DNA of 64,000 nucleotides from Faecalibacterium prausnitzii. GTDB lineage: Bacteria; Bacillota; Clostridia; Oscillospirales; Ruminococcaceae. Location of the stretch: assembly GCF_003287405.1 (NCBI RefSeq), contig NZ_PRLD01000002.1, forward strand, positions 186,001-250,000, given 5' to 3'. The translations under genes and the position numbers were made by a program. Below, piece by piece: positions 10,214-47,070 of this stretch; the stretch's first letter is position 1; the number at the start of each line of letters is the position of its first letter. Under the pieces are notes generated by a model. The model worked only from the letters and a program-made list of their open reading frames with translations, had not been told where the DNA came from and ran no database searches.

Positions 10214-10216
10214 TTC

Positions 10217-10905: not shown

Positions 10906-12684
10906 ATGGATATCACACACATTACCTCTCTGCTGGGCGGCGTTGCGCTGTTCTTGTACGGTATGTCCATCATGGGCGCCGGACTGGAAAAGCTGGCAGG
11001 CGGCAAGATGCAGGGCGTATTGCAAAAGCTTACCTCCTCTACCATCAAGGGCGTGATCTTCGGCACACTGATCACCGGCGTCATCCAGTCGTCGGCTGGT
11101 ACGGTGGTTATTTGTGTTGGTCTGGTCAACTCCGGTATCATGACACTGACGCAGTCGGTAGGCGTGATTATGGGTGCAAATATTGGTACTACGGTAACAG
11201 GTCAGTTGATCCGCATGGCGGATATCTCAGGCGACAGCCTGTGGCTGACCTTGATCCAGCCCAAGACCTTTGCCCCCGTGGTGGCGTTTATTGGCTGCAT
11301 TTTTTATGTGTTCCTCCGCAATGCCAAAAAGAAGAACATCGGCCAGATCATGCTGGGCTTCGGTATCCTGTTTACCGGCATGAGCCTGATGGATACCGGC
11401 GTAGCACCCCTGCGGGAGAGCGCAGTCTTTCAGAATCTGTTCGTCACCATGACCAACCCCATTCTGGGTGTTCTGGTGGGCGTGGTGGTCACCGTGATCA
11501 TCCAGTCCTCCTCCGCCTCCGTGGGTATTTTGCAGGCACTGTCCAGCACAGGGCTTGTCACCTTCAGCTCTGCTATTCCTATCATTCTGGGCGCGCATAT
11601 CGGTACGGCGTTCACCCCGCTGCTCACCATCGGCGGCTCTTCCAAGGATGGTAAGCGGGCAGCGCTCATCCACCTGTACTTCAACGTCATCGGCAGCGTG
11701 ATCCTGCTGGCGCTGATCTATGCGGTGCAGTTTACCATCGGCATCCCCATGTGGGGCGATGTGATGAACAAGAGCTCCATTGCAAACATCCATACCATGT
11801 CCAGCGTGTGCGCTATGCTGCTGTTCCTGCCTTGCAGCGGGGTGCTGAGCCGCTTGGCGATGCTCACAGTGCCCAGCAGCGTGGAGGAAGCACAGGAACT
11901 GAGTATGCCGGTGCTGGACGAGCGTCTGTACAAGAGCCCGGCTGTGGCTTTGCAGCAGGCTAAGAACGCGGTGATCAAGATGTCCCGCCGTGCTGCCCGC
12001 AATGTGGGTCTGGCCGCGCCGCTGCTTTTGAAGATGGACGAGGAGACCGTGAGCGCCATCAAGGTACGCGAAAACCTGATCGACCGCATGGAGGTGGAGA
12101 TCACCAACTACCTGATCAAGCTGACCGATCAGGAACTGGGCGATGACGAGAGCCACGCAGTGACCGAGCTGCTGAACTTTGTCACCGAGTTCGAGCGCAT
12201 CGGCGACTATGCCGTGAACATCATGGAAAAGGCCGAGGAGCTGTACGACAAGGAAGCCAGCTTCAGCGAAAGCGCCAAAAAGGAACTGCAATTGCTGGAT
12301 GCCGCATTGGAGCGCATTCTGGTTCTGACGGACGAGGCCTTTGAAAACGATGATACCCAGAAGGCTGCACAGGTGGAGCCGCTGGAGGAGATCATTGATG
12401 TAATGGTGGAGCGTCTGCGTGACCAGCACATCCGCCGCCTGAAGGACGGCATTTGCTCCATCGACACCGGCGTGGTGTTCCTCGATGTGCTGAACAACGC
12501 CGAGCGTATCTCCGACCACTGCTCCAACATTGCGGTGCGCATGGTGGGCATGGAGGCCGGCGATGATTACGACTCCCACACCCTGAAAAGCATTATGCAC
12601 CACAACCCCAGCAAGGACTATATGCTGGAATACGAGCAGTGCCGCAAGGAATACCTTGTGCCGCTGGAAGAAATGGAAGCTTGA
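10906..12684 (+). CDS. Na/Pi cotransporter with C-terminal PhoU domain
   Basis: This 592-residue protein has a membrane part (about 1-310) with both family repeats: GVIQSSAGTVV with GANIGTTVTGQ, and VIIQSSSASVGIL with GAHIGTAFTPLL. A cytoplasmic PhoU-like helical domain (about 350-570) with two helical bundles containing E-R-I-G/S-D-Y/H motifs follows. It likely moves phosphate with sodium, with the PhoU part sensing or gating. AGGAG lies before the ATG. A 21-bp-stem terminator closes the gene. It is longer than, and not adjacent in operon to, the PhoU-less paralogue at 8321. Confidence 0.9.
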   Translation: MDITHITSLLGGVALFLYGMSIMGAGLEKLAGGKMQGVLQKLTSSTIKGVIFGTLITGVIQSSAGTVVICVGLVNSGIMTLTQSVGVIMGANIGTTVTGQLIRMADISGDSLWLTLIQPKTFAPVVAFIGCIFYVFLRNAKKKNIGQIMLGFGILFTGMSLMDTGVAPLRESAVFQNLFVTMTNPILGVLVGVVVTVIIQSSSASVGILQALSSTGLVTFSSAIPIILGAHIGTAFTPLLTIGGSSKDGKRAALIHLYFNVIGSVILLALIYAVQFTIGIPMWGDVMNKSSIANIHTMSSVCAMLLFLPCSGVLSRLAMLTVPSSVEEAQELSMPVLDERLYKSPAVALQQAKNAVIKMSRRAARNVGLAAPLLLKMDEETVSAIKVRENLIDRMEVEITNYLIKLTDQELGDDESHAVTELLNFVTEFERIGDYAVNIMEKAEELYDKEASFSESAKKELQLLDAALERILVLTDEAFENDDTQKAAQVEPLEEIIDVMVERLRDQHIRRLKDGICSIDTGVVFLDVLNNAERISDHCSNIAVRMVGMEAGDDYDSHTLKSIMHHNPSKDYMLEYEQCRKEYLVPLEEMEA

Positions 12685-12691
12685 ATCCTAT

Positions 12692-12736
12692 AAATGCAAT
12701 AGGCCGCTGCACATCGTGCAGCGGCCTATTGCATTT
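12692..12736. terminator. Bidirectional terminator, 21-bp perfect stem
   Basis: Positions 12692-12712 pair perfectly with 12716-12736 around a 3-base loop. It lies between the converging transporter and the BofC-like gene, whose stop codon touches the stem. Confidence 0.8.
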
Positions 12737-13109
12737 ATTCCCCCAGATCCTCCAGCAGCAGGTCCAGCTCCCGGGGGCTGTTGACCACAAGCCCGCGCTT
12801 GATGCGCAAAGCGTCGTTTTCCGGCAGAAGATTGGTGTAGATGCCGGTCACGCGGATCAAAGTGCCCGGGGTGCCGTCGGCGCGGCAGGTGTACACCGCC
12901 ACCCGCCCGCCGCTGTCCCGCAGGCAGTAGCGGGCAGCATCCGTCTGGGGCGCAGCCTGTGCGGCAAGGCTCAGGGGAGAGGCGGGATCGGTCTCGGATC
13001 CGGCGGGGCTTTGGGACAGCGGCAGCTTTGGCAGCGCCATCCAGAACAGACTGAATACAATGGTGAATACGCAAAGCCCGTAGAACAGGCAGACAGACAG
13101 CTTGCGCAT
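12735..13109 (-). CDS. BofC C-terminal-like membrane-anchored protein
   Basis: This 124-residue protein has a single N-terminal membrane or signal segment (about 5-25), a short Ser/Pro/Ala linker and a C-terminal domain (about 60-124; YCLRDSGGRVAVYTC then TGIYTNLLPENDALRIKRG). This resembles the C-terminal domain of BofC and related small clostridial proteins. BofC controls the SpoIVB/SigK checkpoint in Bacillus, but a role here is unknown. The start at 13109 is set by AAGGGAG eight bases upstream; longer readings add a non-signal N-terminus. It is divergent from the PBP gene. Confidence 0.65.
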   Translation of the reverse strand: MRKLSVCLFYGLCVFTIVFSLFWMALPKLPLSQSPAGSETDPASPLSLAAQAAPQTDAARYCLRDSGGRVAVYTCRADGTPGTLIRVTGIYTNLLPENDALRIKRGLVVNSPRELDLLLEDLGE

Positions 13110-31792: not shown

Positions 31793-31892
31793 AAAAAACT
31801 GGCATTTTGCCGTTTTTGTGTAAAGTATACAAGAATAAACACAAAAAATTGGCATTGCGCGTATTGCTATTTTACAACTGATATATTAGAAT
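31793..31892 (+). promoter_or_regulatory. uxuA control region: repeats and promoter
   Basis: A promoter TTGCTA (31864-31869), 17 bp, TAGAAT (31887-31892) is preceded by two direct repeats AAAAAAyTGGCATT (31793-31806 and 31843-31856, start to start 50 bp). Between them is a near-palindrome, TTGTGTA-AAG-TATACAA (31816-31832, one mismatch), the size of a GntR-type site, and an inverted pair TTTTTGTGT/ACACAAAAA (31813-31821, 31839-31847). The rest of 31659-31792 holds no gene. Confidence 0.5.
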
Positions 31893-31961
31893 ATAAGCAA
31901 GAAGAGCGTGCAGGCGTTCTGCGCGTGCCACATGATAAATAACGACAGGAGGAACTTCTCT

Positions 31962-33059
31962 ATGCCTATGAAAATGGGTTGGCGCTGGTATGGCGAGGGC
32001 AACGACCCCGTCACCCTGAGCGACATCAAGCAGATCCCCGGCGTGACCAGCATCGTCTGGGCACTGCACAACAAGATGCCCGGCGAGATCTGGGAAATCG
32101 ACGAGATCCAGAAGGTTGCAGACCAGATCCACGCCTACGGCTTTGATATGGATGTTGTCGAGTCCGTCAACGTGCACGACGATATCAAGATCGGTCTGCC
32201 CACCCGCGACCAGTATATCGAGAACTACAAGCAGTGCATCCGCAACCTGTCCAAGTTTGGTGTCAAGGTCATCTGCTACAACTTCATGCCCATCTTCGAC
32301 TGGACTCGCACCGACCTGTTCCACCCGGTAGGCGACGGTTCTACCGCACTGTTCTACGAGAAGGACAAGATCAAGGGCGATTACAAGGCCATGGCTGAGT
32401 ATATCATGTCCTTCACCGAGAAGTATAACATGACCTTCCCCGGCTGGGAGCCGGAGCGCATGGCAAAGCTGGACGAGCTGTTCAAGGCCTACGCCCCTGT
32501 CACCAAGGAGAAGCTGTGGGAAAACCTGAAGTACTTCCTCGAAGCCCTGATGCCCACCTGCCGCGAGTGCGACATCAAGATGGCTATCCACATGGACGAT
32601 CCTCCTTGGGATATCTTCGGCCTGCCCCGCCTGCTGGTGGACGAGCCCAGCATCGACCGCTTCCTGAAGATGGTGGACGATCCGTACAACTGCCTGACCC
32701 TGTGCACCGGCAGCCTGAACGCAAACCCCAACAATAACTGTGCTGAGATCATCCGCAAGCACTGCGACCGTATTGCTTTCGGTCACGTCCGCAACATCCA
32801 CCACTTCCCCAACGGCGACTTCTCTGAGGCTGCGCACCGCGATTGCTGCGGCGAGACCGGCATCATTGAGGTGATGCGCGCTTACCATGACTGCGGCTTT
32901 GAGGGCTACATCCGCCCCGACCACGGCCGTCAGCTGTGGGAGGAAGGCCCCGGCGTCTGCCGCCCCGGCTATGGCAAGTATGACCGTGCTCTGGGCATCC
33001 AGTATATGCTGGGTATCTGGGATCTGCTGGACCGTCTGGATGAAGAAAAGAAGGGCTGA
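31962..33059 (+). CDS. uxuA: Mannonate dehydratase
   Basis: This 365-residue enzyme dehydrates D-mannonate to 2-keto-3-deoxygluconate. It opens with the family segment MGWRWYGEGNDPV and shows the metal-site stretches AIHMDDPP, FGHVRN and RPDHGRQLW. The start at 31962 lies nine bases after AGGAGG; the frame extends upstream without a site. It forms an operon with uxuB five bases downstream. Uronate isomerase and KDG kinase/aldolase are outside the window. Confidence 0.96.
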   Translation: MPMKMGWRWYGEGNDPVTLSDIKQIPGVTSIVWALHNKMPGEIWEIDEIQKVADQIHAYGFDMDVVESVNVHDDIKIGLPTRDQYIENYKQCIRNLSKFGVKVICYNFMPIFDWTRTDLFHPVGDGSTALFYEKDKIKGDYKAMAEYIMSFTEKYNMTFPGWEPERMAKLDELFKAYAPVTKEKLWENLKYFLEALMPTCRECDIKMAIHMDDPPWDIFGLPRLLVDEPSIDRFLKMVDDPYNCLTLCTGSLNANPNNNCAEIIRKHCDRIAFGHVRNIHHFPNGDFSEAAHRDCCGETGIIEVMRAYHDCGFEGYIRPDHGRQLWEEGPGVCRPGYGKYDRALGIQYMLGIWDLLDRLDEEKKG

Positions 33060-33064
33060 TTACT

Positions 33065-34651
33065 ATGAAGCTGTCTGATATCAAAAACGGCAATCTGTCC
33101 GCCGAGTGGGCAGAAAAGGGCTACGAGCTGCCCAAATTCGACATTGAGGCCGTCAAGGCCAAGACCCACGCCGAGCCCACTTGGGTGCACTTCGGTGCCG
33201 GCAACATCTTCCGCGCTTTCCCCGCTGCCGTGCTGAACGACGCACTGAACAGCGGCAAGTACGACCGCGGCGTCATCGTGGCCGAGAGCTTCGACTACGA
33301 GATCATCGACAAGGCTTACCAGCCCTACGATAACCTGAGCCTGCTGGTCTGCCTGAAGTCCACCGGCGAGATCGAGAAGAAGGTCATCGCTTCCGTTACC
33401 GAGAGCCTGAAGGCTGACTATTCCTTCGGCGCCGACTGGGCACGTCTGGTGGAGATCTTCCAGAACCCCAGCCTGCAGATGATCTCCTTTACCATCACTG
33501 AGAAGGGCTACGGCGTTGCTCCCGCTGACTTGGAGCGCGGCCTGACCCCCGTGCTGGCTATGGGCAAGGTCACCGTTCTGCTGTACGAGCGCTTCAAGGC
33601 CGGCAAGCTGCCCCTGACCGTCCAGAGCATGGATAACTGCTCTCACAACGGCGATAAGGTCAAGACTGCCGTCCACGCCTACGCTGCAAAGTGGGTGGAG
33701 CAGGGTTTGGTGCCCGCAGAGTTCCTGGCCTATGTGCAGGACGAGACCAAGATCACCTTCCCGTGGAGCATGATCGATAAGATCACCCCGCGCCCGGACG
33801 CAAAGGTGCAGGAGATGCTGGCAAAGGATGGCTTTGAGGATAACTACACCATCGTTACCGAGAAGCACACCTTCACCGCTCCCTTCGTCAACGCTGAGGA
33901 GACCCAGTACCTGTGCATCGAGGATCACTACACCAATGGCCGTCCTCCGCTGGAGCTGGGCGGTGTGCTGTACTGCGACCGCGAGACCGTGGACAAGATC
34001 GAGAAGATGAAGGTCTGCACCTGCCTGAACCCCCTGCACACTGCCATGTCTATCTATGGCTGTATGCTGGGCTACACCCTCATCTCTGCCGAGATGGCAG
34101 ACGAGGATCTGCGCTCCTTCATCCAGAAGGTCGGCTATATCGAGGCGATGCCCGTGGTCGTTGATCCCGGCGTGCTGAACCCCTACGAGTTCATCGGCGC
34201 TGTCATCAACCGCCGTCTGCCCAACCCCTTCATGCCTGATGCTCCCCAGCGTATCGCTACCGATACCTCCCAGAAGCTGGCGATCCGCTTCGGCGAGACC
34301 ATCAAGGCTTACGAGGAGCGCGGTCTGGACAAGTCCAACCTCGTGCTGATCCCGCTGGTGCTGGCAGGCTATGCCCGCTACCTGAAGGGCATCGACGACA
34401 ACGGCCAGCCCTTCGAGATCTCTCCCGATCCGCTGCTGGCTGAACTGCAGGCCATCGTCAGCCCCTTGCAGGTCAAGGAAGGCGAGCAGGACTTCAGCTG
34501 CCTGAAGGCTCTGTACAGCCGTGCCGATGTGTTCGGTGTGGATCTGTACGCCGTTGGTCTGGGCGAAAAGATCGAGGGCATGGTCAAGGAGCTGTACGCC
34601 GGTAACGGCGCAGTGCGCAAGACCCTGCACAAGTACACCCTCGCCCGCTAA
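33065..34651 (+). CDS. uxuB: Fructuronate reductase (mannitol dehydrogenase family)
   Basis: This 528-residue NAD-dependent long-chain dehydrogenase reduces D-fructuronate to D-mannonate, the substrate of the enzyme encoded just upstream. The nucleotide-binding start is VHFGAGNIFRAF and the C-terminal catalytic domain carries NPLHTAMS and the lysine/histidine elements of the mannitol dehydrogenase superfamily. At 528 residues it is slightly longer than the E. coli enzyme. Context favours fructuronate over tagaturonate as substrate. Confidence 0.92.
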   Translation: MKLSDIKNGNLSAEWAEKGYELPKFDIEAVKAKTHAEPTWVHFGAGNIFRAFPAAVLNDALNSGKYDRGVIVAESFDYEIIDKAYQPYDNLSLLVCLKSTGEIEKKVIASVTESLKADYSFGADWARLVEIFQNPSLQMISFTITEKGYGVAPADLERGLTPVLAMGKVTVLLYERFKAGKLPLTVQSMDNCSHNGDKVKTAVHAYAAKWVEQGLVPAEFLAYVQDETKITFPWSMIDKITPRPDAKVQEMLAKDGFEDNYTIVTEKHTFTAPFVNAEETQYLCIEDHYTNGRPPLELGGVLYCDRETVDKIEKMKVCTCLNPLHTAMSIYGCMLGYTLISAEMADEDLRSFIQKVGYIEAMPVVVDPGVLNPYEFIGAVINRRLPNPFMPDAPQRIATDTSQKLAIRFGETIKAYEERGLDKSNLVLIPLVLAGYARYLKGIDDNGQPFEISPDPLLAELQAIVSPLQVKEGEQDFSCLKALYSRADVFGVDLYAVGLGEKIEGMVKELYAGNGAVRKTLHKYTLAR

Positions 34652-34791: not shown

Positions 34792-35322
34792 TTACTTCCG
34801 GCAGTCGTGCAGGCTGGCGGCGGGCAGGGCACTGCCCAGCAGGCTCCATGCGGCATCCATGCTCTCGTTCAGCAGATAGGCCTGATTCTTCTGGACGTAG
34901 ATGTACACCGCCTCTTTGGTGCGGTAGGCGCAGTACACGGTGTTCCAAGTGTAGCGGTTGGTGGGCTCGGTCTTGTTCTGCTCACCGGCCATCCAGACCG
35001 AAAGCCCGGCGGCGTCCAGCTCCAAACGGTAGAAGGGGCGGGGCAGACCCAGCTTTTTGATCTGCTTGGAGAGGTTAGCAAAGAAGGTACCGAAGTATAC
35101 GGCGGGCAGACCGATGGCTACGATGGCCAGCACGGCGGTCAGCAGCCCGGCACCCTCCCGTTTGCCGATCTGGCTCAGGCAGATCCCGGCGCACACCAGT
35201 AGAATGGCAGTGAACACCGCCGGGCGCTGCCAGCCCTTGTTGTGGCGCAGCAGGTCGAAAGATGCAAAATCGTGAAAGCTTTTTTCGTCCATCTGAACGG
35301 AAACGCAAACATTCTGGGTCAT
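34792..35322 (-). CDS. YcxB-like membrane protein of unknown function
   Basis: This 176-residue protein has two adjacent membrane helices (about 32-48 and 55-75) and a C-terminal beta-rich domain (YRLELDAAGLSVWMAGE, then YTWNTVYCAYRTKEAVYIYV). The arrangement matches YcxB-like proteins, which have no known function. The start at 35322 follows AAGGAGG at eight bases. It sits on the minus strand between uxuB and the sensor kinase, without an evident link to either. Confidence 0.75.
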   Translation of the reverse strand: MTQNVCVSVQMDEKSFHDFASFDLLRHNKGWQRPAVFTAILLVCAGICLSQIGKREGAGLLTAVLAIVAIGLPAVYFGTFFANLSKQIKKLGLPRPFYRLELDAAGLSVWMAGEQNKTEPTNRYTWNTVYCAYRTKEAVYIYVQKNQAYLLNESMDAAWSLLGSALPAASLHDCRK

Positions 35323-35405
35323 AAAGTTACCCTCCTTTTTGGGCATAGTACCACATTTATCAGCAAGAAGCAAGCAAAAGATGCACCGGCGGCGGTGCAT
35401 CCGGC

Positions 35406-35486: not shown

Positions 35487-37016
35487 ATGGAAAAGCGCAA
35501 CTGGAAGCGCAGCGTTACGCTCAAGCAGCGTATGGTGCTGTGTCTGGCGGCTTTTTTTGCGGCCTTTGCGTTGCAGCTTGCCCTGAACGGCTATCAGGCA
35601 CGGGCGGTGCAGCAGGTGCAGGACGACCAGATGGGCAACTTTAACGCCATCAGCCGGTTTCAGGGCGGTGTGGAAAGTTCCATCAGCATTCTGGAAGCGT
35701 ACCGCTGGGAGAACGGCGAGACCGAGGAAATGCTGGAAAAGCTCCGGGCAGCCTGCTCCACCAGCAACGCATGGCTGTGGCGCATCCGATCCAATATGGA
35801 TGGCTTGCAGAACGTCAGCGATGAGCAGTGGGTGCTGTACGGTGCGGTGGAGACCACCTACGGCAGCTATAACACCCTGCTGGAAGAGCTGGAAGGTTAC
35901 CTTACCAGCGGACAGGATGCAAAGGCATCCCAGCTGTACTATAACAAGGTCTCGGTCTGCGGCGGGTATCTGAGCCAGTACACCATGCAGCTGCTGAAAG
36001 CCTCGATTCTGGACGCCCAGATTACTTACACCGAGATCTCGGAGCTGGGCGAGCGGATCGCCCTGATGCAGATCGTGGTGGTGGCGCTGTGCGTGGCACT
36101 GGGCTGCGCTTCCGGTCTGATGGTCATGCGGCTGCTGACCCCAGTCTCCCAGATGATCGAGGCCTCCCGCGCCATCAGTCGCAGCCAGCTCGATACCCCG
36201 GACATCCCGCTGCCCAAGCAGCCGGAGATCGGGCAGCTGGCGGAGTCTTTCAACCGCATGAAGCACTCCATGGCGCAGCAGGTGAGTACCTTACAGGAGA
36301 AAAACGAGATCGAGCGGGAGCTGCACCGCCAAAAGACCGAAGCACTGGAATTGCAGAACCGCATGGAGCGCAGCCGGTTACAGCAGCTGCGCAGCCAGAT
36401 CGACCCGCATTTTCTGTTCAACACCCTGAACGTCATCCAGCAGATGGCGGGCACAGAGTCCGCCTACCGCACACAGGCACTCATTATGGCGCTTTCCCAT
36501 CTGCTGCGTTACAGCCTGATGAGCAACGATGAACAGGTGCCCCTCTCCCGGGAGGTGCGCATTGTGGACGAATACTACTCCATCTACCATGTGCGCTTTG
36601 GCGACCGGGTGCAGATGCAGTGGGCGTTCTCGGACTCGCTGGACCTGACCGAGACCATGGTGCCGTCCTTTATCTTGCAGCCCATCGTGGAAAACGCCTT
36701 CAAGCACGGCATCTGCCCCAAGGAAGAGGGCGGCGTGGTGCGCATCCGCATGATCCCCCTGCGGGAAAAAGGTCTGCTGTGCATCCGGGTGCTGGACAAC
36801 GGCGTAGGCATTGAGCCGGAGCAGCTGCAGCAGCTGCGCACGGCACTGGAACAGCCCGCACCCCGCTGGGAACATATCGGTATTTATAATGTGGCTGCCC
36901 GCTTGCGGCTGCTGGATGCCCGCTGCCGGGTGGTGGTGCGCTCCCGGCCGGGGCGGGGGACTGCGGTGATCCTGTATCTGCCGCTGGTGGAGAATGAGGA
37001 GGAATTTGAGGAATGA
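35487..37016 (+). CDS. YesM/LytS-type sensor histidine kinase
   Basis: This 509-residue kinase has TM1 (about 14-34), an extracytoplasmic helical sensor (about 40-188), TM2 (about 192-214), a HAMP linker (about 215-270), and the His_kinase domain with phospho-acceptor His308 in SQIDPHFLFNTLN. An HATPase domain follows, with its N box at IVENAFKHG and a G box at LDNGVGIEP. It overlaps the response regulator by 4 bp. Coupling to an AraC-type regulator and an extracellular binding lipoprotein is the YesMN-type arrangement used for sensing carbohydrates; a uronate-type ligand is inferred from the neighbours. Confidence 0.9.
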   Translation: MEKRNWKRSVTLKQRMVLCLAAFFAAFALQLALNGYQARAVQQVQDDQMGNFNAISRFQGGVESSISILEAYRWENGETEEMLEKLRAACSTSNAWLWRIRSNMDGLQNVSDEQWVLYGAVETTYGSYNTLLEELEGYLTSGQDAKASQLYYNKVSVCGGYLSQYTMQLLKASILDAQITYTEISELGERIALMQIVVVALCVALGCASGLMVMRLLTPVSQMIEASRAISRSQLDTPDIPLPKQPEIGQLAESFNRMKHSMAQQVSTLQEKNEIERELHRQKTEALELQNRMERSRLQQLRSQIDPHFLFNTLNVIQQMAGTESAYRTQALIMALSHLLRYSLMSNDEQVPLSREVRIVDEYYSIYHVRFGDRVQMQWAFSDSLDLTETMVPSFILQPIVENAFKHGICPKEEGGVVRIRMIPLREKGLLCIRVLDNGVGIEPEQLQQLRTALEQPAPRWEHIGIYNVAARLRLLDARCRVVVRSRPGRGTAVILYLPLVENEEEFEE

Positions 37017-37828
37017 TTCGTCTGTTGATCGCGGATGATGAGAAGATGGAACGGGAAGCGCTGGCGGATATCGTCATGCGCCGGTTCGAGCATGAGGTAA
37101 CAGTGGAAATGGCGGAAAACGGACGCAAAGCCGCCGATACCGCCGTGCTCTGGGGTGCAGACCTGATTTTGATGGACATCGAGATGCCGGGAATGAACGG
37201 CCTGGATGCCGCCCGCGCGGTGCTGGAGCAGCGCCCGGAGTGCAAGGTGATTTTTATCACGGCATACAGCCTGTTCCAGTACGCCCACGAGGCGGTGCAT
37301 CTGGGTGCCTGCGACTATCTGCTGAAGCCGGTGGACCCGGACGAGACCGAAGCTGCCATCCGCCGCGCCATCCGGCAGATCGAAGCCGGACGCCGTCTGG
37401 CAGAGCTGGCTGCGGAAGCCCCGGAGCAGGAAACCGCCCCGGAGCAGGAGACCGACCCCGCCGGGGAAGGGGAGAGTGACCGCAACGCACTGGTGATGGA
37501 TCATGTGCGCAAGTATATGGAAGATAACTATATGGCCGACCTCTCGCTGGACAGCGTGAGCGAAATTTTGCACATCAGCCCGGCGTACCTTTCGGCACAG
37601 TTCAAGAAGTACCAGAAGATGAACTTTCTGGACTGCCTGACCGAGCTGCGCATCAACGCCGCCAAGGAGCTGCTGGCCGACCCCTTCCGCTCCGCAGCGG
37701 AGGTGGCCTCTATGGTGGGCTACGAGGACGCCAGCTACTTTGCCCGCGCCTTTAAAAAGCGCACCGGCATGACCCCCACCCAGTACCGGAAGGAAGCGGC
37801 AAAGGCAGCCCGGGAGGCGCGGCTGTGA
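37013..37828 (+). CDS. YesN-type response regulator with AraC DNA-binding domain
   Basis: This 271-residue regulator has a receiver domain (1-125) with DD at 8-9, phospho-acceptor Asp55 in LILMDIEMPG and the conserved Lys in YLLKPVD. A Glu/Pro-rich linker (about 135-160) leads to an AraC-type double helix-turn-helix (about 165-265) ending in FKKRTGMTPTQYRK. Its start overlaps the kinase stop and its own stop overlaps the next GTG. It is the best candidate to bind the box shared by the promoters at 38974 and 42007. Confidence 0.93.
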   Translation: MIRLLIADDEKMEREALADIVMRRFEHEVTVEMAENGRKAADTAVLWGADLILMDIEMPGMNGLDAARAVLEQRPECKVIFITAYSLFQYAHEAVHLGACDYLLKPVDPDETEAAIRRAIRQIEAGRRLAELAAEAPEQETAPEQETDPAGEGESDRNALVMDHVRKYMEDNYMADLSLDSVSEILHISPAYLSAQFKKYQKMNFLDCLTELRINAAKELLADPFRSAAEVASMVGYEDASYFARAFKKRTGMTPTQYRKEAAKAAREARL

Positions 37829-38829
37829 CCCGCCGTCAGCTGCTGCGTCTGCTTGCGGCAGCTCCGGCGCTGGCAGTTACAGGCTGTACGGCGCAGTCTG
37901 CTTCTTCGCAGCAGGAGAAGCCGCTCATCCTGCGCTATGCGGAGAACCAGCCGGAGGACTACCCCACCAGCAAGGCGGCAAAGGCCTTTGCCGAGCTTGT
38001 GGCGCAGCGCACGGGCGGCCGGGTGAAGGTGCTGGTTTACAGCGGGGCGGAACTGGGCGCAGAGCAGAGCGTCATCCAGCAGATGCAGTTCGGCGGGGTG
38101 GATTTTTCCCGCGTGTCCCTGAGCCAGCTGGCAGAGTACGAGCCGGAGCTCAGCGTGTTGCAGCTGCCTTACCTGTACAGCGATGCCCAGCAGATGTGGC
38201 GGGTGCTGGACGGCAGCATCGGGGACGAGTTTCTGGCCATATTGGATGGGATGGACTTAGTAGGGCTTTCGTGGTTCGACGCCGGTGTGCGCAGCTTCTA
38301 CACCCGGGAAAAGGTGACCGGGCTGGATGATTTGCAGGGGCTGACCATCCGGGTGCAGGAGTCGGACATGATGAGCGACATGATCACCGCACTGGGCGCA
38401 AAGCCGGCGCAGGTGGTGTACAGCAAGGTGTATGCCGCCCTGCATAACGCCGAGATCGATGGGGCAGAGAACAACTGGCCCAGCTACGAAGTGATGGGAC
38501 ACTACGAGGTAGCACCCTTTTTCCTGAAGGACGAGCACACCCGGGTGCCGGAGGTGCAGCTGGCCAGCCCGGCGGTGATGGAAAAGCTTGCCGCGCTGGA
38601 CGAGAGCTTCCCGGAGGTGATCCGTGCCTGCGCCCGGGAGAGCGCGCAGACAGAGCGGGAGCTCTGGGCGCGGCGGGAGGCGAACGCAGAGCAGAATATG
38701 CGCAAGCGGGGCATCTGCGTCACCGAGCTGGACGAGGCCGAAAAAGCCCGCTTCCGCGCAGCGGTACAGCCCATGTACGACCGGTTCCACAGCCATGCAG
38801 ACCTGATCCAGCGGATCCGGGAGAGCTGA
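37825..38829 (+). CDS. Orphan TRAP-family substrate-binding lipoprotein (DctP)
   Basis: This 334-residue protein is a DctP-type binding protein without its own permeases. The N-terminus has Arg-Arg at 3-4, a hydrophobic stretch and a lipobox with Cys21. The ligand-arginine segment reads DLQGLTIRVQES, followed by the family motif region DGAENNWPSYE. It begins with GTG (37825), overlapping the regulator stop and seven bases after GGGAGG. Fusion into the kinase-regulator operon suggests it presents ligand to the sensor; it could instead share the DctQM permease encoded at 43331-45194. Confidence 0.9.
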   Translation: MTRRQLLRLLAAAPALAVTGCTAQSASSQQEKPLILRYAENQPEDYPTSKAAKAFAELVAQRTGGRVKVLVYSGAELGAEQSVIQQMQFGGVDFSRVSLSQLAEYEPELSVLQLPYLYSDAQQMWRVLDGSIGDEFLAILDGMDLVGLSWFDAGVRSFYTREKVTGLDDLQGLTIRVQESDMMSDMITALGAKPAQVVYSKVYAALHNAEIDGAENNWPSYEVMGHYEVAPFFLKDEHTRVPEVQLASPAVMEKLAALDESFPEVIRACARESAQTERELWARREANAEQNMRKRGICVTELDEAEKARFRAAVQPMYDRFHSHADLIQRIRES

Positions 38830-38892: not shown

Positions 38893-38973
38893 GCGAACAT
38901 TTTTCGGCATAATCGACAATGTCCCCCAAGTACGCTTGTTGAATATGCACAGCCGCATTTTCACTTTTTTGTA

Positions 38974-39028
38974 AAAAACAGGACATTTTATCAATCCCCT
39001 TGCTGGCTAAATTTTTTTGCACTACAAT
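38974..39028 (+). promoter_or_regulatory. Activator box and promoter of the GH28-like gene
   Basis: The box AAAAACAGGACATTTT (38974-38989) is followed by CCCTTG seven bases later, containing the start of the -35 TTGCTG (39000-39005), a 17-bp spacer and -10 TACAAT (39023-39028). An identical box at the same distance from -35 and -10 precedes dctP at 42007. Confidence 0.7.
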
Positions 39029-39121
39029 GAAGTCACCAAGCAATCGTGCCATACAAAAACGCCTGAAATGTACCCCATCGGGATTCAGATCGTGCAAAGC
39101 AAAAAAGGAGGAAATTGGGTT

Positions 39122-41824
39122 ATGTTTTCCAAAAAGATCTCGCGCCGCAGCTTTCTGAAGGTCAGTGCTGTGACCACCGCCATGGCCGCCATGGGCCTGC
39201 CTGCCTTTGCCGCAGAGGATACGGCAGAGGAAAACTGCTTCCAGACCCTGAACATCCCCCGGGCCACCGGCAGCACCGTGGACAAAAGCGTCCTGCTGAA
39301 CGAGAGCCGCCTGTACCTCATCACGGATTTTGGGGCTGTTTCGGAGGGAGACCCCGTCCAGAACACTAAAGCCATCAACGCCGCCATCCAGGCTGCCAGT
39401 GAGGCCGGCGGCGGCACCGTGGTGGTGCCGGCAGGTGACTTTAAGAGCTACACCATCCGTCTCCAGAGCGGCGTCAACCTCCGCATCGACGCCAACGGCA
39501 TCATCCGGGCTGCCCGGGCAGACCTGTACGACTGGTATGGCAACCAGACCATGGTAGGCGAGGGCGGAAACTACGATGAGCCGGAAGTGAACCTCTACGC
39601 CGGTCTCCAGGACCACGGCCACACCTACTTTGCCAACAGCCTGTTCTACGCCGCCGACAAGCACGACATCATGATCTACGGCGAGGGCCTCATCGACGGC
39701 AGCTACATGGACGACACCGGCACCCTCATCAATGTGCTGTCCGGCAACGACCCCTCCAACCCCAAAAACCGCACCGACCGGGGCTACAGCTCCACCTGGT
39801 ACGGCAACAAGGCCATTGCACTGGTGCGCTGCGAGAATGTGGTGCTGGACGGCATCCGCATCCTGAACGGCGGCCACTTTGCCATCATCGCTGAGGGCAC
39901 CCGGAACATGACCGTCAACGACCTGATCGTGGACACCAACCGGGACGCCTATAACATCGATTGCACCCAGGACGTTACCGTCCGCAACAGCCACTTCAAC
40001 TCCCTCACGGACGACGCCATCGTCATGAAGGCCTCCTACGGTGCCGGCGTGTTCATGCCCACCCAGAACGTTCTGATCGAGGACTGTGTGGTCAGCGGCT
40101 ACGATGCCGGTTCTGTGATCACCGGAGCCTGCACCACCGATAAGATCGTGGCCACCGACGCCTGCGGCCCCACCGCCCGTGTCAAGTTTGGCACTGAGTC
40201 CACCTGCGGCTACCACACCGTCACCATCACCCGGGTGCGGTTCGAGCGTTCCCGTGGCTTCTGCATGGAGGCCGTGGACGGCAGCTCCCTCACCAACATC
40301 GTGATGACCGACTGCACCATGGACACCGTCTCCTCCTCCCCCATCTTTATCCGGGTAGGCGATCGTGCCCGGTACCCTGTCACCGGCCACACCACTGAGC
40401 AGGCCATCAACGCCGCCAACGATGTGCGTCTGGACAATTCCGGCTGGGTGCTGCCCAACCGTGCCGAGTATCAGCTGTACCCCGTGGCCCGCTACAGCCC
40501 CTCCTATAATAAGAGCAAGACCGTCTCCATCGACGGCGTTTCCTCCTTTAAGGTGGTAGACCCTGCCAACCCCACTCGCATCAACAACGCCAACCTGGCA
40601 GAGATCGACGGCAAGCTGTACCTCTACCGCTGGGATGACGCCCAGCACCAGTATGTGCCGGATATGACCCGGGAGATCAGCCGGAAGGACGCTGTCTACT
40701 ACGCCAACGCTACCGCTGCCAAGGACCTGGCCAGCGTCAGCAACGTGGAGATCAGCAACATCCGCATCACCAACGTAGATCCCCGGTACCCCATCCTGCT
40801 GGAGGGCCTGGTGGACAGCAAGGTGAAGAACGTGATCCTGCGGAACATCTCGGTGCAGTACCGGGGCGGCCTGTCCCTCCAGGAGGCTGTGGAGCAGCGG
40901 CAGCTGGGCACCTACTGGGTCTACTCCCAGAGCGGCTCTGCCCCCACTGTGCAGAAGCTGCCCTGGCTGGTGAACACCTTCTTCAGCAAGTGCGAGGGCC
41001 TGCTGCCCCGTGTGGCCTGGAAGAACGGCACCTGGGTAGACGACCCCTACAATGTGCCGGAGATGGTAGCCGAGTACCCGGAGCCCTCCATCCTGGGCAT
41101 CCTGCCGGCCTACGGCATCTACGCCCGTCATATAGAGGGTCTGGTGCTGCAGAATGTGGCCCTGAACTATGTGATCCAGGATAAGCGTCCGGCCATCGTG
41201 CTGGATGACGTTTCCAACGCTGACCTGCGTACCGTGGCCGCCAAGACTGCCCTGGGCGTCAAGACGGTAGTCACCGTGACCAACCACTACAAGCGCCATG
41301 TGGGCAACGAGTATGTGCCTGAGGAGCCCTATTTCACCACCACCTGCGAGAACCTGAAGCTGGGCCTGCTGAGCCGTGAACAGGTCACCGTGGATACCCC
41401 GGCCCCCGGCACCCCGGCAGACAGCCTCTATGGCAACATCCGCCTGCCCATCCCGGAAAACGGCTATCAGTTCGCCATTCCGACCCAGGAGTACCCCCTG
41501 CCTCTGACGGTGCACCGCCCCTACTTCAGCCACATCGGAGACCAGACCGTCCAACTGGGCCAGACCCTGACCCTGACGGTCTCGGGCCGGAACCCGGCCA
41601 ACGGCGTCCGCACCACCCAGCCCCAGCCTGCTGCCGTCATCGAGGCTCTGGACGGCGGCCTGACCTACGGCACCGCCGGCCTGCTGCCTCTGGGCGCATC
41701 CTTTGACGCCGGTTCTCACACCCTCACCTTTACCCCCAAGGCCAAGGGCACCTACAAGGTCACCTTTACCCTGGACGACGGCGTCATCCCCGTAAGCAAG
41801 ACCGTTAAGATCACCGTGGCGTGA
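39122..41824 (+). CDS. Tat-exported GH28-like parallel beta-helix protein
   Basis: This 900-residue secreted protein has a twin-arginine signal (SRRSFLK, cleavage near AFA at 30). From about 60 it has a pectate-lyase/polygalacturonase-type beta-helix opening DFGAVSEGDPVQNTKAINAA. GH28-like acidic positions appear in NRDAYNID and TDDAIVMK. The usual GHG histidine segment reads GYDAGSVITG, so the enzyme is divergent or uses another mechanism. The last 100 residues form an Ig-like domain with no LPxTG anchor. Its start follows AAAGGAGG. Position beside uxuAB and a TRAP transporter suggests action on uronate-containing polysaccharide. Confidence 0.8.
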   Translation: MFSKKISRRSFLKVSAVTTAMAAMGLPAFAAEDTAEENCFQTLNIPRATGSTVDKSVLLNESRLYLITDFGAVSEGDPVQNTKAINAAIQAASEAGGGTVVVPAGDFKSYTIRLQSGVNLRIDANGIIRAARADLYDWYGNQTMVGEGGNYDEPEVNLYAGLQDHGHTYFANSLFYAADKHDIMIYGEGLIDGSYMDDTGTLINVLSGNDPSNPKNRTDRGYSSTWYGNKAIALVRCENVVLDGIRILNGGHFAIIAEGTRNMTVNDLIVDTNRDAYNIDCTQDVTVRNSHFNSLTDDAIVMKASYGAGVFMPTQNVLIEDCVVSGYDAGSVITGACTTDKIVATDACGPTARVKFGTESTCGYHTVTITRVRFERSRGFCMEAVDGSSLTNIVMTDCTMDTVSSSPIFIRVGDRARYPVTGHTTEQAINAANDVRLDNSGWVLPNRAEYQLYPVARYSPSYNKSKTVSIDGVSSFKVVDPANPTRINNANLAEIDGKLYLYRWDDAQHQYVPDMTREISRKDAVYYANATAAKDLASVSNVEISNIRITNVDPRYPILLEGLVDSKVKNVILRNISVQYRGGLSLQEAVEQRQLGTYWVYSQSGSAPTVQKLPWLVNTFFSKCEGLLPRVAWKNGTWVDDPYNVPEMVAEYPEPSILGILPAYGIYARHIEGLVLQNVALNYVIQDKRPAIVLDDVSNADLRTVAAKTALGVKTVVTVTNHYKRHVGNEYVPEEPYFTTTCENLKLGLLSREQVTVDTPAPGTPADSLYGNIRLPIPENGYQFAIPTQEYPLPLTVHRPYFSHIGDQTVQLGQTLTLTVSGRNPANGVRTTQPQPAAVIEALDGGLTYGTAGLLPLGASFDAGSHTLTFTPKAKGTYKVTFTLDDGVIPVSKTVKITVA

Positions 41825-42000
41825 TCCTGTCGGTTTTCTGCCTGCTCATAGGCCCCGGCTGGTCTGCCCCACAGCGGACCGGCCGGGGCCAGAGCAGTTT
41901 CGGAGCCACTTGGACCGCAAGTTGTATCCATCTGTACGTTAGTATTGCACAAATAAAACGGAAAACGGTTGTGCAAAATAGCAAAAACAATCTTGACATT

Positions 42001-42061
42001 CTTTCGAAAAACAGGACATTTTTCGAAAGCCCTTGTTTCATTTCGGAAAATTTGCTAAAGT
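42001..42061 (+). promoter_or_regulatory. Palindromic activator box and promoter of dctPQM
   Basis: Perfect 11-bp arms (42001-42011 and 42019-42029) surround CAGGACA; the core 42007-42022 is identical to the box at 38974. Then come the -35 TTGTTT (42033-42038), 17 bp, and -10 TAAAGT (42056-42061). The remainder of 41825-42138 shows no gene. Confidence 0.72.
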
Positions 42062-42138: not shown

Positions 42139-43233
42139 ATGAAAATGATCTCTCGTCGTAGCTTTATGGCTGTTGCCGGTGCAGCTACTGCTGCTGTTGC
42201 TCTGACCGCCTGCGGTGGTTCCAAGAGCGGCTCCACTTCTACCGCTGCTTCCACCTCTACCGCAGCTTCTGCTTCTGCTGCTGCCGGTGATGCAGCTGCT
42301 GCTGCCAGCGATCCCAAGGTGACTCTGGTCTACGCCGAGGTCAACCCGCTGGATACCATCGTTGGCCAGACCGGTTCTCACTTCAAGGAGAAGGTCGAGG
42401 AGCTGAGCGGCGGTTCTGTGGTCGTCGATGTGCAGGCTTCCGGTGTTCTGGGCTCTGAGAACGACGTTCTGGACGCTATTCTGGGCGGCTCTACCTCCAT
42501 TGATATCAGCCGTATCTCTGCTTTCGCTCTGACCAGCTACGGCTGCAACAAGTCCAAGCTGCTGTCCATCCCCTTCACCTTCAACAACCGCGCTCACTTC
42601 TGGAACTTTGCCAACAGCGATCTGGCTCCTGAGTTCCTGAACGAGCCCCAGGAGCTGGGCCTGCCCGTTCGCGGCCTGTTCTACGGCGAGGAGGGCTTCC
42701 GTCACTTCTTCACCGTCAAGCCCGTTGCTGCGATCGGCGACCTGAAGGGCATGAAGCTGCGTGTGTCCAACGACCCCGTTATGAACGGCATGGTCGAGGG
42801 TCTGGGCGCTAACCCCACCGTCGTTGCTTTCGGCGAGCTGTACAGCGCACTGCAGACCGGCGTTGTGGATGGCGCTGAGCAGCCCATCGCAAACTACAAG
42901 TCCAACGCCTTCCCCGAGGTTGCTAACAACCTGATTCTGGACGGCCACACTCTGGGCGCTGTTCAGGCTGTTATCACCGACAACGCATGGGGCAAGCTGA
43001 CCGCTAACCAGCAGGCTGCTGTCATGGCTGCTGCTGCCGACACCCAGAAGTTCAACGCTGATCTGTCCGAGACCGCTGAGAACAAGGTTTTGGAAGAGCT
43101 GCGCTCCTCCGGCTGCAACGTTGTGGATGTGGACGACAAGACTCCCTGGCAGGAAGCTTGCGCTAAGGTCATCAAGGACAACACCTCTGATCAGGCTGAG
43201 CTGTACCAGAAGCTGCTGGATATGAAGGCATAA
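42139..43233 (+). CDS. dctP: TRAP transporter substrate-binding lipoprotein DctP
   Basis: This 364-residue binding protein of a tripartite transporter captures an organic acid, probably a sugar acid, outside the membrane. Arg-Arg at 6-7, a hydrophobic segment and lipobox Cys25 are followed by an Ala/Ser-rich linker (about 28-55). The ligand-arginine motif is DLKGMKLRVSND and the downstream helix DGAEQPIANYKS. The start at 42139 follows AAGGAGG at nine bases. Both permeases follow, separated by a hairpin that may favour higher expression of this subunit. Confidence 0.93.
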   Translation: MKMISRRSFMAVAGAATAAVALTACGGSKSGSTSTAASTSTAASASAAAGDAAAAASDPKVTLVYAEVNPLDTIVGQTGSHFKEKVEELSGGSVVVDVQASGVLGSENDVLDAILGGSTSIDISRISAFALTSYGCNKSKLLSIPFTFNNRAHFWNFANSDLAPEFLNEPQELGLPVRGLFYGEEGFRHFFTVKPVAAIGDLKGMKLRVSNDPVMNGMVEGLGANPTVVAFGELYSALQTGVVDGAEQPIANYKSNAFPEVANNLILDGHTLGAVQAVITDNAWGKLTANQQAAVMAAAADTQKFNADLSETAENKVLEELRSSGCNVVDVDDKTPWQEACAKVIKDNTSDQAELYQKLLDMKA

Positions 43234-43330: not shown

Positions 43331-43852
43331 ATGCCGAAAATCTTTACCACTCTGGATAAGATCAGACCGGCGTACGACATTACCTACAAGGTGGTTCTGT
43401 TCATCTGCAAGATCCTGCTGATTGCAGATATCCTCATTACCACGATGTCGGTCATCGGTCGTTACGTCCCCTTTATTCCGGACCCCTCCTGGTCTGAGGA
43501 GGTCGTTCTGACCTGCATGAGCTACATGGCTGTGCTGAGCGCTGCACTGGCCATCCGCCGCGGCGCACACATCCGCATGACTGCCTTTGATATGTACCTG
43601 CCCAAGAAAGTGGTCAAGGCGCTGGACATCCTGTCCGACGTGGCTGTGATGGTCCTTGGTGTGGTGATGATGGCGGTCGGCTGGAACTACGCCACCACGC
43701 TGGGCGGCCGTGGCTTCTATGTTTCCATGCCTTGGCTGAGCCGCTTCTGGATGTACTTCCCGGTGCCGCTGGCCGGTGTTGCCATGATCATCTTCGAGAT
43801 CGAGTCTCTGTATAACCATATCAAGAGCTTTTTTGTAAAGGAGGAAATGTAA
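43331..43852 (+). CDS. dctQ: TRAP transporter small permease DctQ
   Basis: This 173-residue protein has four predicted membrane helices (about 22-42, 58-76, 98-118 and 140-160) and the DctQ-family WSEEVVLTCMSYM region. It forms the membrane complex with the large permease, encoded two bases downstream. TGGAGGA precedes the ATG. Confidence 0.92.
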   Translation: MPKIFTTLDKIRPAYDITYKVVLFICKILLIADILITTMSVIGRYVPFIPDPSWSEEVVLTCMSYMAVLSAALAIRRGAHIRMTAFDMYLPKKVVKALDILSDVAVMVLGVVMMAVGWNYATTLGGRGFYVSMPWLSRFWMYFPVPLAGVAMIIFEIESLYNHIKSFFVKEEM

Positions 43853-43853
43853 T

Positions 43854-45194
43854 ATGACAGTTCAGACACTGGCAATCATTGTCCTTCTTGTCAGCTTCTT
43901 TGTTATGATCTTCCTGCGCTTCCCTATTGCATACGCCGTTGGTCTGTCCAGCGTGCTGTGCATGCTGGTGCAGGGACAGGCACTGACCGACGTCTGCCGC
44001 CTGATGGTCAAGGGTATCTCTTCCTTCAGTCTGATGGCAGTTCCGTTCTTCATCACCATGGGCGTGCTCATGGGCTCCGGCGGCATCTCTGAAAAGCTGA
44101 TCGCACTGGCTGACGCCTGCGTGGGCTGGATGCGCGGCGGCATGGCCATGGTCAACATCGTGGCTTCCTACTTCTTCGGCGGCATTTCCGGTTCCGCTTC
44201 CGCCGATACCGCCTCCATCGGCTCTATCATGATCCCCATGATGGTGGATCAGGGCTACGGTGCAGACTTCTCCACCGCTGTTACCATTACCTCCTCCTGC
44301 GAGGGTCTGCTGGTTCCCCCCAGCCATAACATGGTCATCTACGCTACCACCGCCGGTGGTATCTCCGTGGGCAGCCTGTTCCTGGCCGGCTACCTGCCCG
44401 GCGCTCTGCTGGCTATCGTGCTGATGATCGGCTCCTACATCATCTCGGTCAAGCGCAACTACCCCAAGGGCGATCCCTTCAGCATCAAGGCTTTTGTCAA
44501 GCAGTTGGGCACTTCTATCTGGGCACTGGCCGCTGTTATCATCGTGGTGTTCGGCGTTGTCGGCGGTGTGTTTACCGCTACCGAGTCTGCTGCTATCGCC
44601 GTTATCTACTCTCTGCTCGTTTCCGTGTTCGTCTATAAGGGTCTGGACTGGAAGGGCGTGTGGCACGCTCTGGACGAGTGCGTCAACACCCTGTCCATCG
44701 TGCTGATCCTGATCGCTACCTCTGCAGTGTTCGGCAACTGCCTGACCATGCTGCACGTTCCCGATCTGGCAGCAACCGCCATCACCGACCTCACCGATAA
44801 CCCCTACATCATTGCACTGCTCATCGACCTGATCCTGCTGGTGCTGGGCATGATCATGGATATGGCTCCCATCATCCTGATCGCTACCCCCATCCTGCTG
44901 CCCATCGCCACCTCCATCGGCATCGATCCCATCCAGTTCGGTATCATCGTGGTTCTGAACTGCGGCATCGGCCTGCTGACTCCTCCCGTTGGCTCCGTTC
45001 TGTTCATTGGCTCTGCCGTTGCAAAGCGCCCCATGGAGAAAGTGGTCAAGGCGACCCTGCCGTTCTACCTGTGTATGTTCGTTGCACTGCTGCTGCTGAC
45101 CTACGTCCCCGACATCAGCCTTGCTATCCCCAAGCTGCTGGGCGGCTATGTAAGCCCCATCACAAACCCGCTGGGTCCTGTGTTCATCCACTAA
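43854..45194 (+). CDS. dctM: TRAP transporter large permease DctM
   Basis: This 446-residue membrane protein with about twelve helices is the Na+-coupled transport subunit. Family segments are visible: PFFITMGVLMGSGGIS, SGSASADTASIGSIMIPMM and the late GLLTPPVGSVLF. It completes a full TRAP system with the genes upstream. Placement next to uxuAB and the GH28-like gene suggests hexuronate or oligouronate uptake, which is inference. Confidence 0.95.
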   Translation: MTVQTLAIIVLLVSFFVMIFLRFPIAYAVGLSSVLCMLVQGQALTDVCRLMVKGISSFSLMAVPFFITMGVLMGSGGISEKLIALADACVGWMRGGMAMVNIVASYFFGGISGSASADTASIGSIMIPMMVDQGYGADFSTAVTITSSCEGLLVPPSHNMVIYATTAGGISVGSLFLAGYLPGALLAIVLMIGSYIISVKRNYPKGDPFSIKAFVKQLGTSIWALAAVIIVVFGVVGGVFTATESAAIAVIYSLLVSVFVYKGLDWKGVWHALDECVNTLSIVLILIATSAVFGNCLTMLHVPDLAATAITDLTDNPYIIALLIDLILLVLGMIMDMAPIILIATPILLPIATSIGIDPIQFGIIVVLNCGIGLLTPPVGSVLFIGSAVAKRPMEKVVKATLPFYLCMFVALLLLTYVPDISLAIPKLLGGYVSPITNPLGPVFIH

Positions 45195-45363: not shown

Positions 45364-47070
45364 ATGGAGCAAAAACGCCTGTGTCCGTTCTGCATTGGGG
45401 AACTGCCGCCTGCGGCAACCGTCTGCCCCCATTGCGGGAAGATCTTAGAGGGCTGCAACCCGGCGGGCTGCCTGCCGGTGGGCACGGTGCTGGCTGGGCG
45501 CTATACCGTGGGCGAGATGCGCAGTCTGGACGGCGAGGGTGTGCTGTACAGCGGTGTGGAGAATCTGGGCGGTTTCCGGGTGACCATCAAGGAGTACCTG
45601 CCCGTCACCCTTTCTGCGGAGCGGGGTGCGGACTGCATCCTGCGCCCCAAGCAGGGCAGCGAAGTGCTGTTCAAGACCACCCGCATGGACTTTGCAGACC
45701 TGTACCGCGCCATCCAGCGTATTACCCCCGCCAGCGGCTTGGAGGCCGTGCTGGACGTGGTGGAAGCCAACAACACCGTGTATGCGGTGCTGGAAAACCT
45801 AGGCGGCACCCCGCTGGAGCAATGGCTGGAAAACCGTCCTGCCCCGGTGCGGGCAGAGGAGGCCTGCGCCATGCTGCGCCCGGTGTTTGAGGGCGTGGCA
45901 GCCATGCACAAGGCAGGGCTGGTGCACCGCGGCATCTGCCCGGAGAATATCCGGGTGATGGCAGATGGCCGCTGCCGTCTGGCCGGGTACGCCACTGTGG
46001 GTCTGCGCACCGCAGGCAGCGGCCTGCACGAGCAGCTGTACGAGGGCTACTCTGCGCCGGAGCAGTACACCACCGCCGATTTTGAGGGGCGCTACACCGA
46101 CGAATACAGCCTTGCCGCCGTCTTTTACCGCATGGTGTGCGGGCAGGCACCCATGCCCGCTGCCCAGCGCGTGGTGTCGGACTCTAACCCCCGGGCACGC
46201 ACCGTAGAGCCTGCCGTGCCAGCCTACGTTTCCGATGTATTGCAGCTGGGGCTGCGGCTCAAGGTCATGGAGCGAATCCAGACCGTGCCGCAGCTGTATC
46301 AGGCGCTTTCTTCCAAGGAATATACCGCCGAGCTGACCCGCACCATGAAGCCGGAGACCCCGATGCATCCGGTGCGGGCAGAGCAGAGCGGGCAGGGCAG
46401 GGAACATCTGCTCAGTTTGAAGGGATTGCTGGCGGGCATCCTGATCCTGCTTTCCGTTCTGATCCTGCTCACCCTGTGGGGCATCGTGAGCAGCAAGGAG
46501 GAGCAGCCTGCAACCTCGGTGCCGAGTTCGGAAGCTGCCAGCAGCGAGGAAATGAAGCCACAGAACCTTGTGCCCAATTTTGTGGGCATCGACTACGAGC
46601 AGATCAAGAATAACCGCGAGTACACCAGTATGTACCTGTTCCGGGCGGTGCTGGAGTACAGCGATACTGTGCCCTCCGGGCAGGTCATCCGGCAGGAGCC
46701 GGAGGCTGGCGAGGTGATGGAGAACGGCGAGGTGATCCAGATCGTGGTCAGTCAGGGCCCGGAAAAGGTGGAGATGCCAAAGATCATCGGTGCATCGCAG
46801 GATAAGGCCATTGAGATCCTGAGCAGCCGGGGGCTTGTGGCCAGCTGTTTCATGGTGGTGAACGATGGCTCTTACGCTACGGGCTGCGTGGTCTCTGCCA
46901 GCGAGGAAGAGGGCGCCATGGTCACGGTGGGTACGGTGATCACCATATATATCGCCGCAGACCCCAGTGTGCAGATCACCGCCACCCCGGAAGAGCCTGC
47001 CGCTACCGAGCCTACCACCCCGGAAACGCCCCCGGAGGGCAGCACAGAGCCGGAATACGATACAGATTAA
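45364..47070 (+). CDS. Zinc-ribbon, kinase-like (pseudokinase) membrane protein with PASTA domains
   Basis: This 568-residue protein starts with a zinc ribbon (C7-x2-C10, C21-x2-C24). A Ser/Thr-kinase fold (about 45-320) follows, then one membrane helix (about 353-373) and two PASTA repeats outside (about 400-468 and 470-540), ending in a Pro/Thr/Glu tail. The kinase keeps the ATP lysine (K76 in VTIKEY) and N195 but has HRG for HRD (G190) and AGYA where DFG should be (about 207-210). It lacks both catalytic aspartates and is probably a pseudokinase that senses wall fragments. It is a single gene with its own promoter and terminator. Confidence 0.82.
   Translation: MEQKRLCPFCIGELPPAATVCPHCGKILEGCNPAGCLPVGTVLAGRYTVGEMRSLDGEGVLYSGVENLGGFRVTIKEYLPVTLSAERGADCILRPKQGSEVLFKTTRMDFADLYRAIQRITPASGLEAVLDVVEANNTVYAVLENLGGTPLEQWLENRPAPVRAEEACAMLRPVFEGVAAMHKAGLVHRGICPENIRVMADGRCRLAGYATVGLRTAGSGLHEQLYEGYSAPEQYTTADFEGRYTDEYSLAAVFYRMVCGQAPMPAAQRVVSDSNPRARTVEPAVPAYVSDVLQLGLRLKVMERIQTVPQLYQALSSKEYTAELTRTMKPETPMHPVRAEQSGQGREHLLSLKGLLAGILILLSVLILLTLWGIVSSKEEQPATSVPSSEAASSEEMKPQNLVPNFVGIDYEQIKNNREYTSMYLFRAVLEYSDTVPSGQVIRQEPEAGEVMENGEVIQIVVSQGPEKVEMPKIIGASQDKAIEILSSRGLVASCFMVVNDGSYATGCVVSASEEEGAMVTVGTVITIYIAADPSVQITATPEEPAATEPTTPETPPEGSTEPEYDTD

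Follow-up and report, generated by a model that had tools for sequence, protein, structure and literature searches.

GanS of Geobacillus stearothermophilus belongs to a galactan system that also includes a sugar-binding protein, of the ABC type, and an AraC-type regulator, and DctB of Bacillus subtilis is a TRAP-type binding protein whose partners, DctS and DctR, are not known to be of the YesM/YesN type. In the parts of its published account available to us, the CuaDSR system of Ruminiclostridium cellulolyticum comprises a lipoprotein binding protein, a sensor kinase, and a YesN/AraC regulator encoded in one operon, which adjoins a transporter operon and activates it, the transporter having a different binding protein of its own (PMC10384115). 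The available text on DctB-DctS-DctR presents an accessory membrane co-receptor and a kinase that serve a carboxylate transporter (PMC6978683). CuaDSR appears to be the nearest described system to a locus that we have analyzed in a 64,000-nucleotide stretch of DNA from Faecalibacterium prausnitzii, here called the window, and we would call the locus a further member of that kind. The two have in common the same three protein kinds, with a regulator of the YesN/AraC type, and a neighboring transporter with a separate binding protein; as far as the available account of CuaDSR goes, they differ in that the compound sensed by CuaD is cellobiose and its transporter is of the ABC type, whereas here sensor and transporter both belong to the TRAP type (DctP family) and the compound is likely a hexuronate, and in that CuaR has 538 amino acids with a long middle stretch, compared with 271 amino acids for the regulator of the window (PMC10384115). 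DctB-DctS-DctR resembles the locus in having a membrane co-receptor that works with the kinase but, in the text available, is concerned with C4 compounds and the transporter DctA. No published account of this locus was found in a literature search judged by titles and the beginnings of abstracts.

The sensor genes lie on the forward strand at 35487-38829. Pfam matches identify a membrane histidine kinase of the YesM/LytS type (35487-37016; PF06580, HATPase_c, and HAMP), and a response regulator of the YesN type with a receiver and an AraC-type helix-turn-helix (HTH) domain (37013-37828) is recognized from Pfam, its orthologues, and an HTH alignment; it is the proposed binder of the sequence box discussed below. 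The third gene (37825-38829) encodes, on Pfam and PDB matches, an orphan solute-binding protein of the DctP family, a predicted lipoprotein and our candidate for the ligand sensor; its start overlaps the stop of the regulator gene by 4 bases. Because the reading frames overlap, the three genes probably form one operon. The kinase and regulator had been described beforehand as a YesM/YesN two-component system; that pairing stands, but the third gene makes the system a three-component sensor with a binding protein. A cysteine follows the signal in the nine sensor-protein orthologues displayed (lipobox judged by eye), and the sensor protein is 26 to 31% identical to the transport DctP. The closest solved kinase domain is that of GanS (PDB 6swk/6swj; 38% identity over about 210 columns), and in the structural model of the kinase, which is of moderate confidence, everything that precedes HAMP is helical (residues 12 to 231; pLDDT mostly 70 to 90, pTM 0.38).

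Downstream, also on the forward strand, lie the TRAP transporter genes dctP (42139-43233; the transport binding protein), dctQ (43331-43852), and dctM (43854-45194), and these Pfam calls bear out the complete TRAP transporter that had been named as a target. The DNA after dctM (45364-47070) holds a gene that by eye resembles a protein kinase with PASTA-like repeats. We put at roughly 0.8 the probability that the locus is a three-component nutrient switch, in which the regulator binds a site shared by two promoters and activates both dctPQM and an enzyme gene (39122-41824). The membrane-anchored TRAP-type binding protein would capture a hexuronate, most likely D-glucuronate, and would signal to the histidine kinase at its outer, helical portion; the kinase would then phosphorylate the AraC-type response regulator, which would bind, immediately in front of two weak promoters, a 43-bp site that combines the box with a half-site lying 20 bp upstream. 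The bound regulator would activate the importer and, in the genome of the window and that of one relative, a captured gene for an exported beta-helix enzyme. We infer regulator binding, activation, the ligand, and the contact between binding protein and kinase from the evidence assembled below.

The box AAAAACAGGACATTTT (16 bp) is present in two exact copies, at 38974-38989 and 42007-42022, where the preliminary description had placed them, and no third place in the window matches it within 3 mismatches; the chance expectation at that level averages 0.21 matches, and 2 matches were reached in 3 of 100 shuffles. In both copies the distance from the start of the box is 23 bases to the beginning of CCCTTG and 49 bases to that of the -10 hexamer, again as first reported. 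The reported 17-bp spacer holds if the -35 hexamers are taken to be TTGCTG and TTGTTT, which begin three bases into CCCTTG, but becomes 20 if counted from CCCTTG itself. The promoter predicted for the enzyme gene (39000-39028, forward strand) was read from the sequence as TTGCTG, 17 bp, and TACAAT, and that for dctP (42033-42061, forward strand) as TTGTTT, 17 bp, and TAAAGT, with TGC ahead of the -10 hexamer and a -10 region that is conserved in the footprint. Both predicted promoters are weak, and neither appears in a consensus promoter scan that called for 9 of 12 letters. With its flanks, each box forms part of an extended 43-bp candidate regulatory site on the forward strand, the first (38960-39002) preceding the beta-helix enzyme gene and the second (41993-42035) preceding dctPQM. 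Across the genome (3.03 Mb in 70 contigs, 99.64% complete), AAAAACAGGACATTTT has 2 exact copies, no copy with 1 mismatch, and 4 with 2 mismatches; the total within 3 mismatches is 46, compared with 56 for a reversed control pattern, and therefore only the exact copies stand out.

The box lies upstream of dctP and downstream of the sensor operon in 13 genomes of the genus. Across these 13 dctP promoters its columns are 99.5% identical to the consensus and those of the 43-bp extended site 93%, compared with 65% upstream of the extended site, where 52 of the 60 columns entered the average, and 76% in the leader, gap columns being ignored; when the set is reduced to the 9 distinct dctP sites, the corresponding figures are 99.3, 92.8, 64.3, and 75.1%. 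A sequence model of 11 distinct sites, including those of the enzyme genes, was scored on 31 genus genomes, with 150 first-look candidates per genome. It gave 15 strong matches, at 46 to 57 bits, all of which are the model's own source sites or copies of them: the promoters of dctP in the 13 genomes and those of the enzyme gene in G000, the genome of the window, and in G013. The site of G016, which is outside the model, scored 26.5 bits, and the remainder lay at 22.4 bits and below; the weak match at G002:C1:483298-483328, with 22.4 bits, is barely over background. Because this model contained the enzyme sites, a held-out model was built from the 9 distinct dctP sites only. At E values of 0.01 or less it found in its own genome the dctP promoter (57.4 bits) and the enzyme promoter (27.8 bits, E = 6.7e-6) and no others, and its best match in 195 other genomes of the family reached 21.8 bits (E = 2.6e-4), G000 being set apart from this background together with G015, which carries the site. 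With this model, matches at E = 0.01 or better turned up in 46 of 197 genomes. The E values of both models are thus on the generous side, and it is the difference in bits alone that should be weighed; the held-out search used stricter filters, with 32 candidates per genome, and weak sites could escape it.

Searches of the genome and its relatives thus confine the site nearly to the dctP and enzyme promoters. Boxes with one mismatch (L033, L035, and L036) occur near a peptidase-like gene in G011, in the gap between uxaC and uxaB in G014, and, in G030, with an ABC binding protein on one side and an RpiR-type regulator on the other, the gene names being taken from translations; a wider regulon built on them was considered and dropped, as was the uxaC-uxaB box of G014 in particular, which by eye is not kept in other uxaB promoters. 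A further sequence on the uxuA side of the window, AAAAACTGGCATTTT (31794-31808), was found in 4 of the 24 uxuA promoters scanned and was also dropped. The site is not consistently present in the promoters of the neighboring uxuA and the distant uxaB.

The enzyme gene (39122-41824, forward strand) encodes, on Pfam and PDB matches, a right-handed beta-helix protein with a Tat signal that is related to pectin-type enzymes. It had been proposed to be a Tat-exported, GH28-like protein; the Tat signal was recovered, but its GH28 score of 20.3 bits falls below the Pfam gathering cutoff of 22.9. Its best PDB match, a partial one, is the pectate lyase 5olp, and the second is the exo-polygalacturonosidase 3jur. 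The gene is present at the locus in G000 and G013, where it intervenes between the sensor binding-protein gene and dctP, and absent from the 11 other box genomes, in which those two genes are adjacent. No relatives at E = 1e-60 were detected in 395 other genomes of the family and 390 other genomes of the class drawn for the search, in which at most 2 first-look candidates per genome were scored and from whose draw G013 was evidently missing. By blastn against the dctP promoter of G029, the DNA ahead of the enzyme gene is unrelated to that upstream of dctP save for 29 to 43 bp around the box, and the box of the enzyme gene therefore does not stem from duplication of the entire dctP promoter; it may either have arrived with the gene or have arisen in place. 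The enzyme-gene box is the best independent evidence for a putative shared regulator.

Site and regulator were compared across the same 31 genomes, in which the regulator has an orthologue in 15 and dctP is present in 21. All 13 genomes whose regulator is at least 80% identical (80 to 100%) carry the box, 12 of them in identical form and G008 with one change; in G016 (67% regulator identity) the box has diverged, and in G009 (56%) no box could be recognized in the DNA ahead of the dctP start, which is readable in that genome. In the HTH alignment the stretch SPAYLSAQFKKYQ does not vary among the 13 box genomes but differs in both G016 and G009. The 16 regulator-free genomes gave no match to the 11-site model above 22 bits, the highest being 17.9, and 6 of them (G001, G004, G005, G007, G010, and G018, the last with a distant dctP) have dctP. 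Some regulator-free genomes are incomplete (G004, 84%; G005, 83%), so the absence of the regulator is weaker evidence there. Co-occurrence may partly reflect linkage, in that the sensor operon adjoins the dctP promoter and the two may pass on together as a single block; the genomes, too, are related to one another. Several assemblies have peculiarities: the last approximately 25 bases of L260, at a contig end, resemble an adapter and read like what we take to be a sequencing transposase adapter, presumably a sign of untrimmed ends in that assembly, and in L039 (G077), which was left out of the promoter counts, the gene for the sensor protein seems to continue into dctP, probably through an assembly join of two related genes. 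Two loci labeled Spirochaetales (L094 and L095; about 6485 to 12934) have the same order of kinase, regulator, sensor, and dctPQM, with proteins about 41 to 82% identical to those of the window (DctM, 82%) and no box seen in the DNA upstream of dctP; transfer or mislabeled bins are possible.

The identity of the bound factor and the shape of its operator have to be weighed together. The second box is the core of a perfect 29-bp palindrome (42001-42029, forward strand; 11-bp arms and a 7-base center), and a different transcription factor, such as a palindrome-binding dimer encoded elsewhere, might bind the box while the sensor controls something else; the arms pair somewhat better over the 9 distinct dctP sites than permutation would give (84 compared with a mean of 80.1; P = 0.038). 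The palindrome is, however, perfect in only 1 of those 9 sites, with 8 to 10 of 11 pairs in the others and 6 of 11 in both enzyme-gene sites (G000 and G013), so that the element found at copy 2 is real but is not kept as such, and its standing as a conserved core was rejected. The site, moreover, tracks the regulator, including in the matched pair G016 and G010 described below, and we regard a factor from elsewhere as unlikely. AraC-type proteins are expected to use direct-repeat operators, with half-sites spaced some two helical turns from each other beside the -35 hexamer. Shifting the 43 columns by 20 positions against themselves gives a match of 53% overall and of 84.8% in the best 9-column window (ACATTYTTT and ACATTTTTY). 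By permutation of columns with the best offset taken, this repeat is only moderately significant (P = 0.025 over 11 related sites), and it is not significant in the two sites of the window taken singly or together (P = 0.11, 0.75, and 0.14); in the dctP site of the window taken alone, an offset of 30 scores slightly above one of 20. We favor the 20-bp direct repeat over the palindrome as the operator candidate.

Conservation of the box without any regulator, as the stem of an RNA terminator or an AT-rich promoter element, we consider scarcely credible. The palindrome does score as terminator-like in a consensus scan, but its stem has 3 G-C pairs followed by CCCTTGTTTC, with no clean T-run, is not conserved, and lies upstream of both promoters, and separate hairpins and T-rich stretches can be read by eye after the binding-protein gene; the terminator reading was rejected on the weak, unconserved stem and these hairpins elsewhere, and an AT-rich element would have no need of an invariant CAGGACA. 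That the regulator, once on the site, lowers transcription or acts in both directions is improbable in our judgment, though slightly less so: the transcription start is predicted rather than mapped, which leaves room for it, but the site is just upstream of the -35 hexamers of weak promoters, the layout expected for an AraC-type activator. The available account of the related CuaR, moreover, has it up-regulating its transporter operon (PMC10384115). Activation by the adjacent regulator is thus the reading that we retain. Of the single regulon proposed in the preliminary description, two promoters that share a site beside a YesM/YesN-type operon, and a site that tracks the regulator, survive; the palindromic core, the GH28 assignment, and the two-component description have been set aside.

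Upstream of the sensor operon, Pfam matches place uxuA and a gene of the mannitol dehydrogenase family (31908-34651), the latter of which we have taken for uxuB; together they presumably account for the steps of glucuronate breakdown that involve fructuronate and mannonate. The best solved relatives of the sensor protein, whose model has a mean pLDDT of 74.6, are TRAP binding proteins. For the D-glucuronate TRAP binding proteins STM3169, Apre_1383, and Bpro_3107, the available text gives the residues of the glucuronate site, in STM3169 numbering, as N35, Q36, E74, R150, R170, N210, and D237 (PMC7660916). The sensor shares with these proteins N, Q, E, R, R, and N and differs from STM3169 in having E for D at the seventh position. 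This pattern is found in 10 of 10 aligned sensor proteins (that of the window and those of 9 further loci, which include the two labeled Spirochaetales but not G016 or G009), the correspondence resting on a constant offset of +6, with STM3169 itself outside the alignment. Of these residues, only E, R, and R are shared by the transport DctP. The ligand of the sensor would accordingly be a hexuronate, most likely D-glucuronate; the sensor is encoded with a kinase, whereas the proteins of the published study are, in the text available, encoded with a transporter (PMC7660916).

A second motif, centered on GTATAC, occurs in the window at 31825-31830, upstream of uxaB at L197 to L216, and upstream of dctP at L080, L081, L083, L084, and L085. 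Of the 6 regulator-free dctP promoters, 5 have it no more than 200 bases from the gene, compared with none of the 14 regulator-bearing promoters scanned, and it precedes uxaB in 20 of 23 genomes and uxuA in 15 of 24; this distribution suggests an operator that serves a separate hexuronate regulator. In the matched pair G016 and G010, DctM is 100% identical over the stretch compared and DctP 92%, yet G016 carries the regulator together with a box-like site and lacks GTATAC, whereas G010 has GTATAC without regulator or box. A homologue of the gene that flanks the kinase (34792-35400, reverse strand) lies directly upstream of dctP in G001 and G010, the two genomes inspected for this (33% identity; E = 3e-26 and 2e-21), and the sensor block is therefore absent there; genomes appear either to have the block whole or to lack it. 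It is possible, though we hold the view only tentatively and think it somewhat less probable than not, that the sensor block and its operator form a movable cassette that replaces a GTATAC-type operator at the same transporter operon, so that hexuronate uptake would have shifted from control shared with the catabolic genes to a dedicated outside sensor, and that the same operator also came to govern an inserted, unrelated enzyme gene. Our confidence in this reading is lowered because, in the regulator-free genomes G001, G004, G007, and G010, GTATAC precedes dctP and uxaB but is absent before uxuA.

In summary, a sensor in a member of Faecalibacterium, which we take to be a butyrate producer of the human gut, now has a precise candidate operator, candidate target genes, and a guess at its ligand. 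Pairs of genomes with and without the sensor block offer a natural test of a transporter changing regulatory hands, and the possible exchange of the operator together with the sensor block is the most interesting point about this locus.
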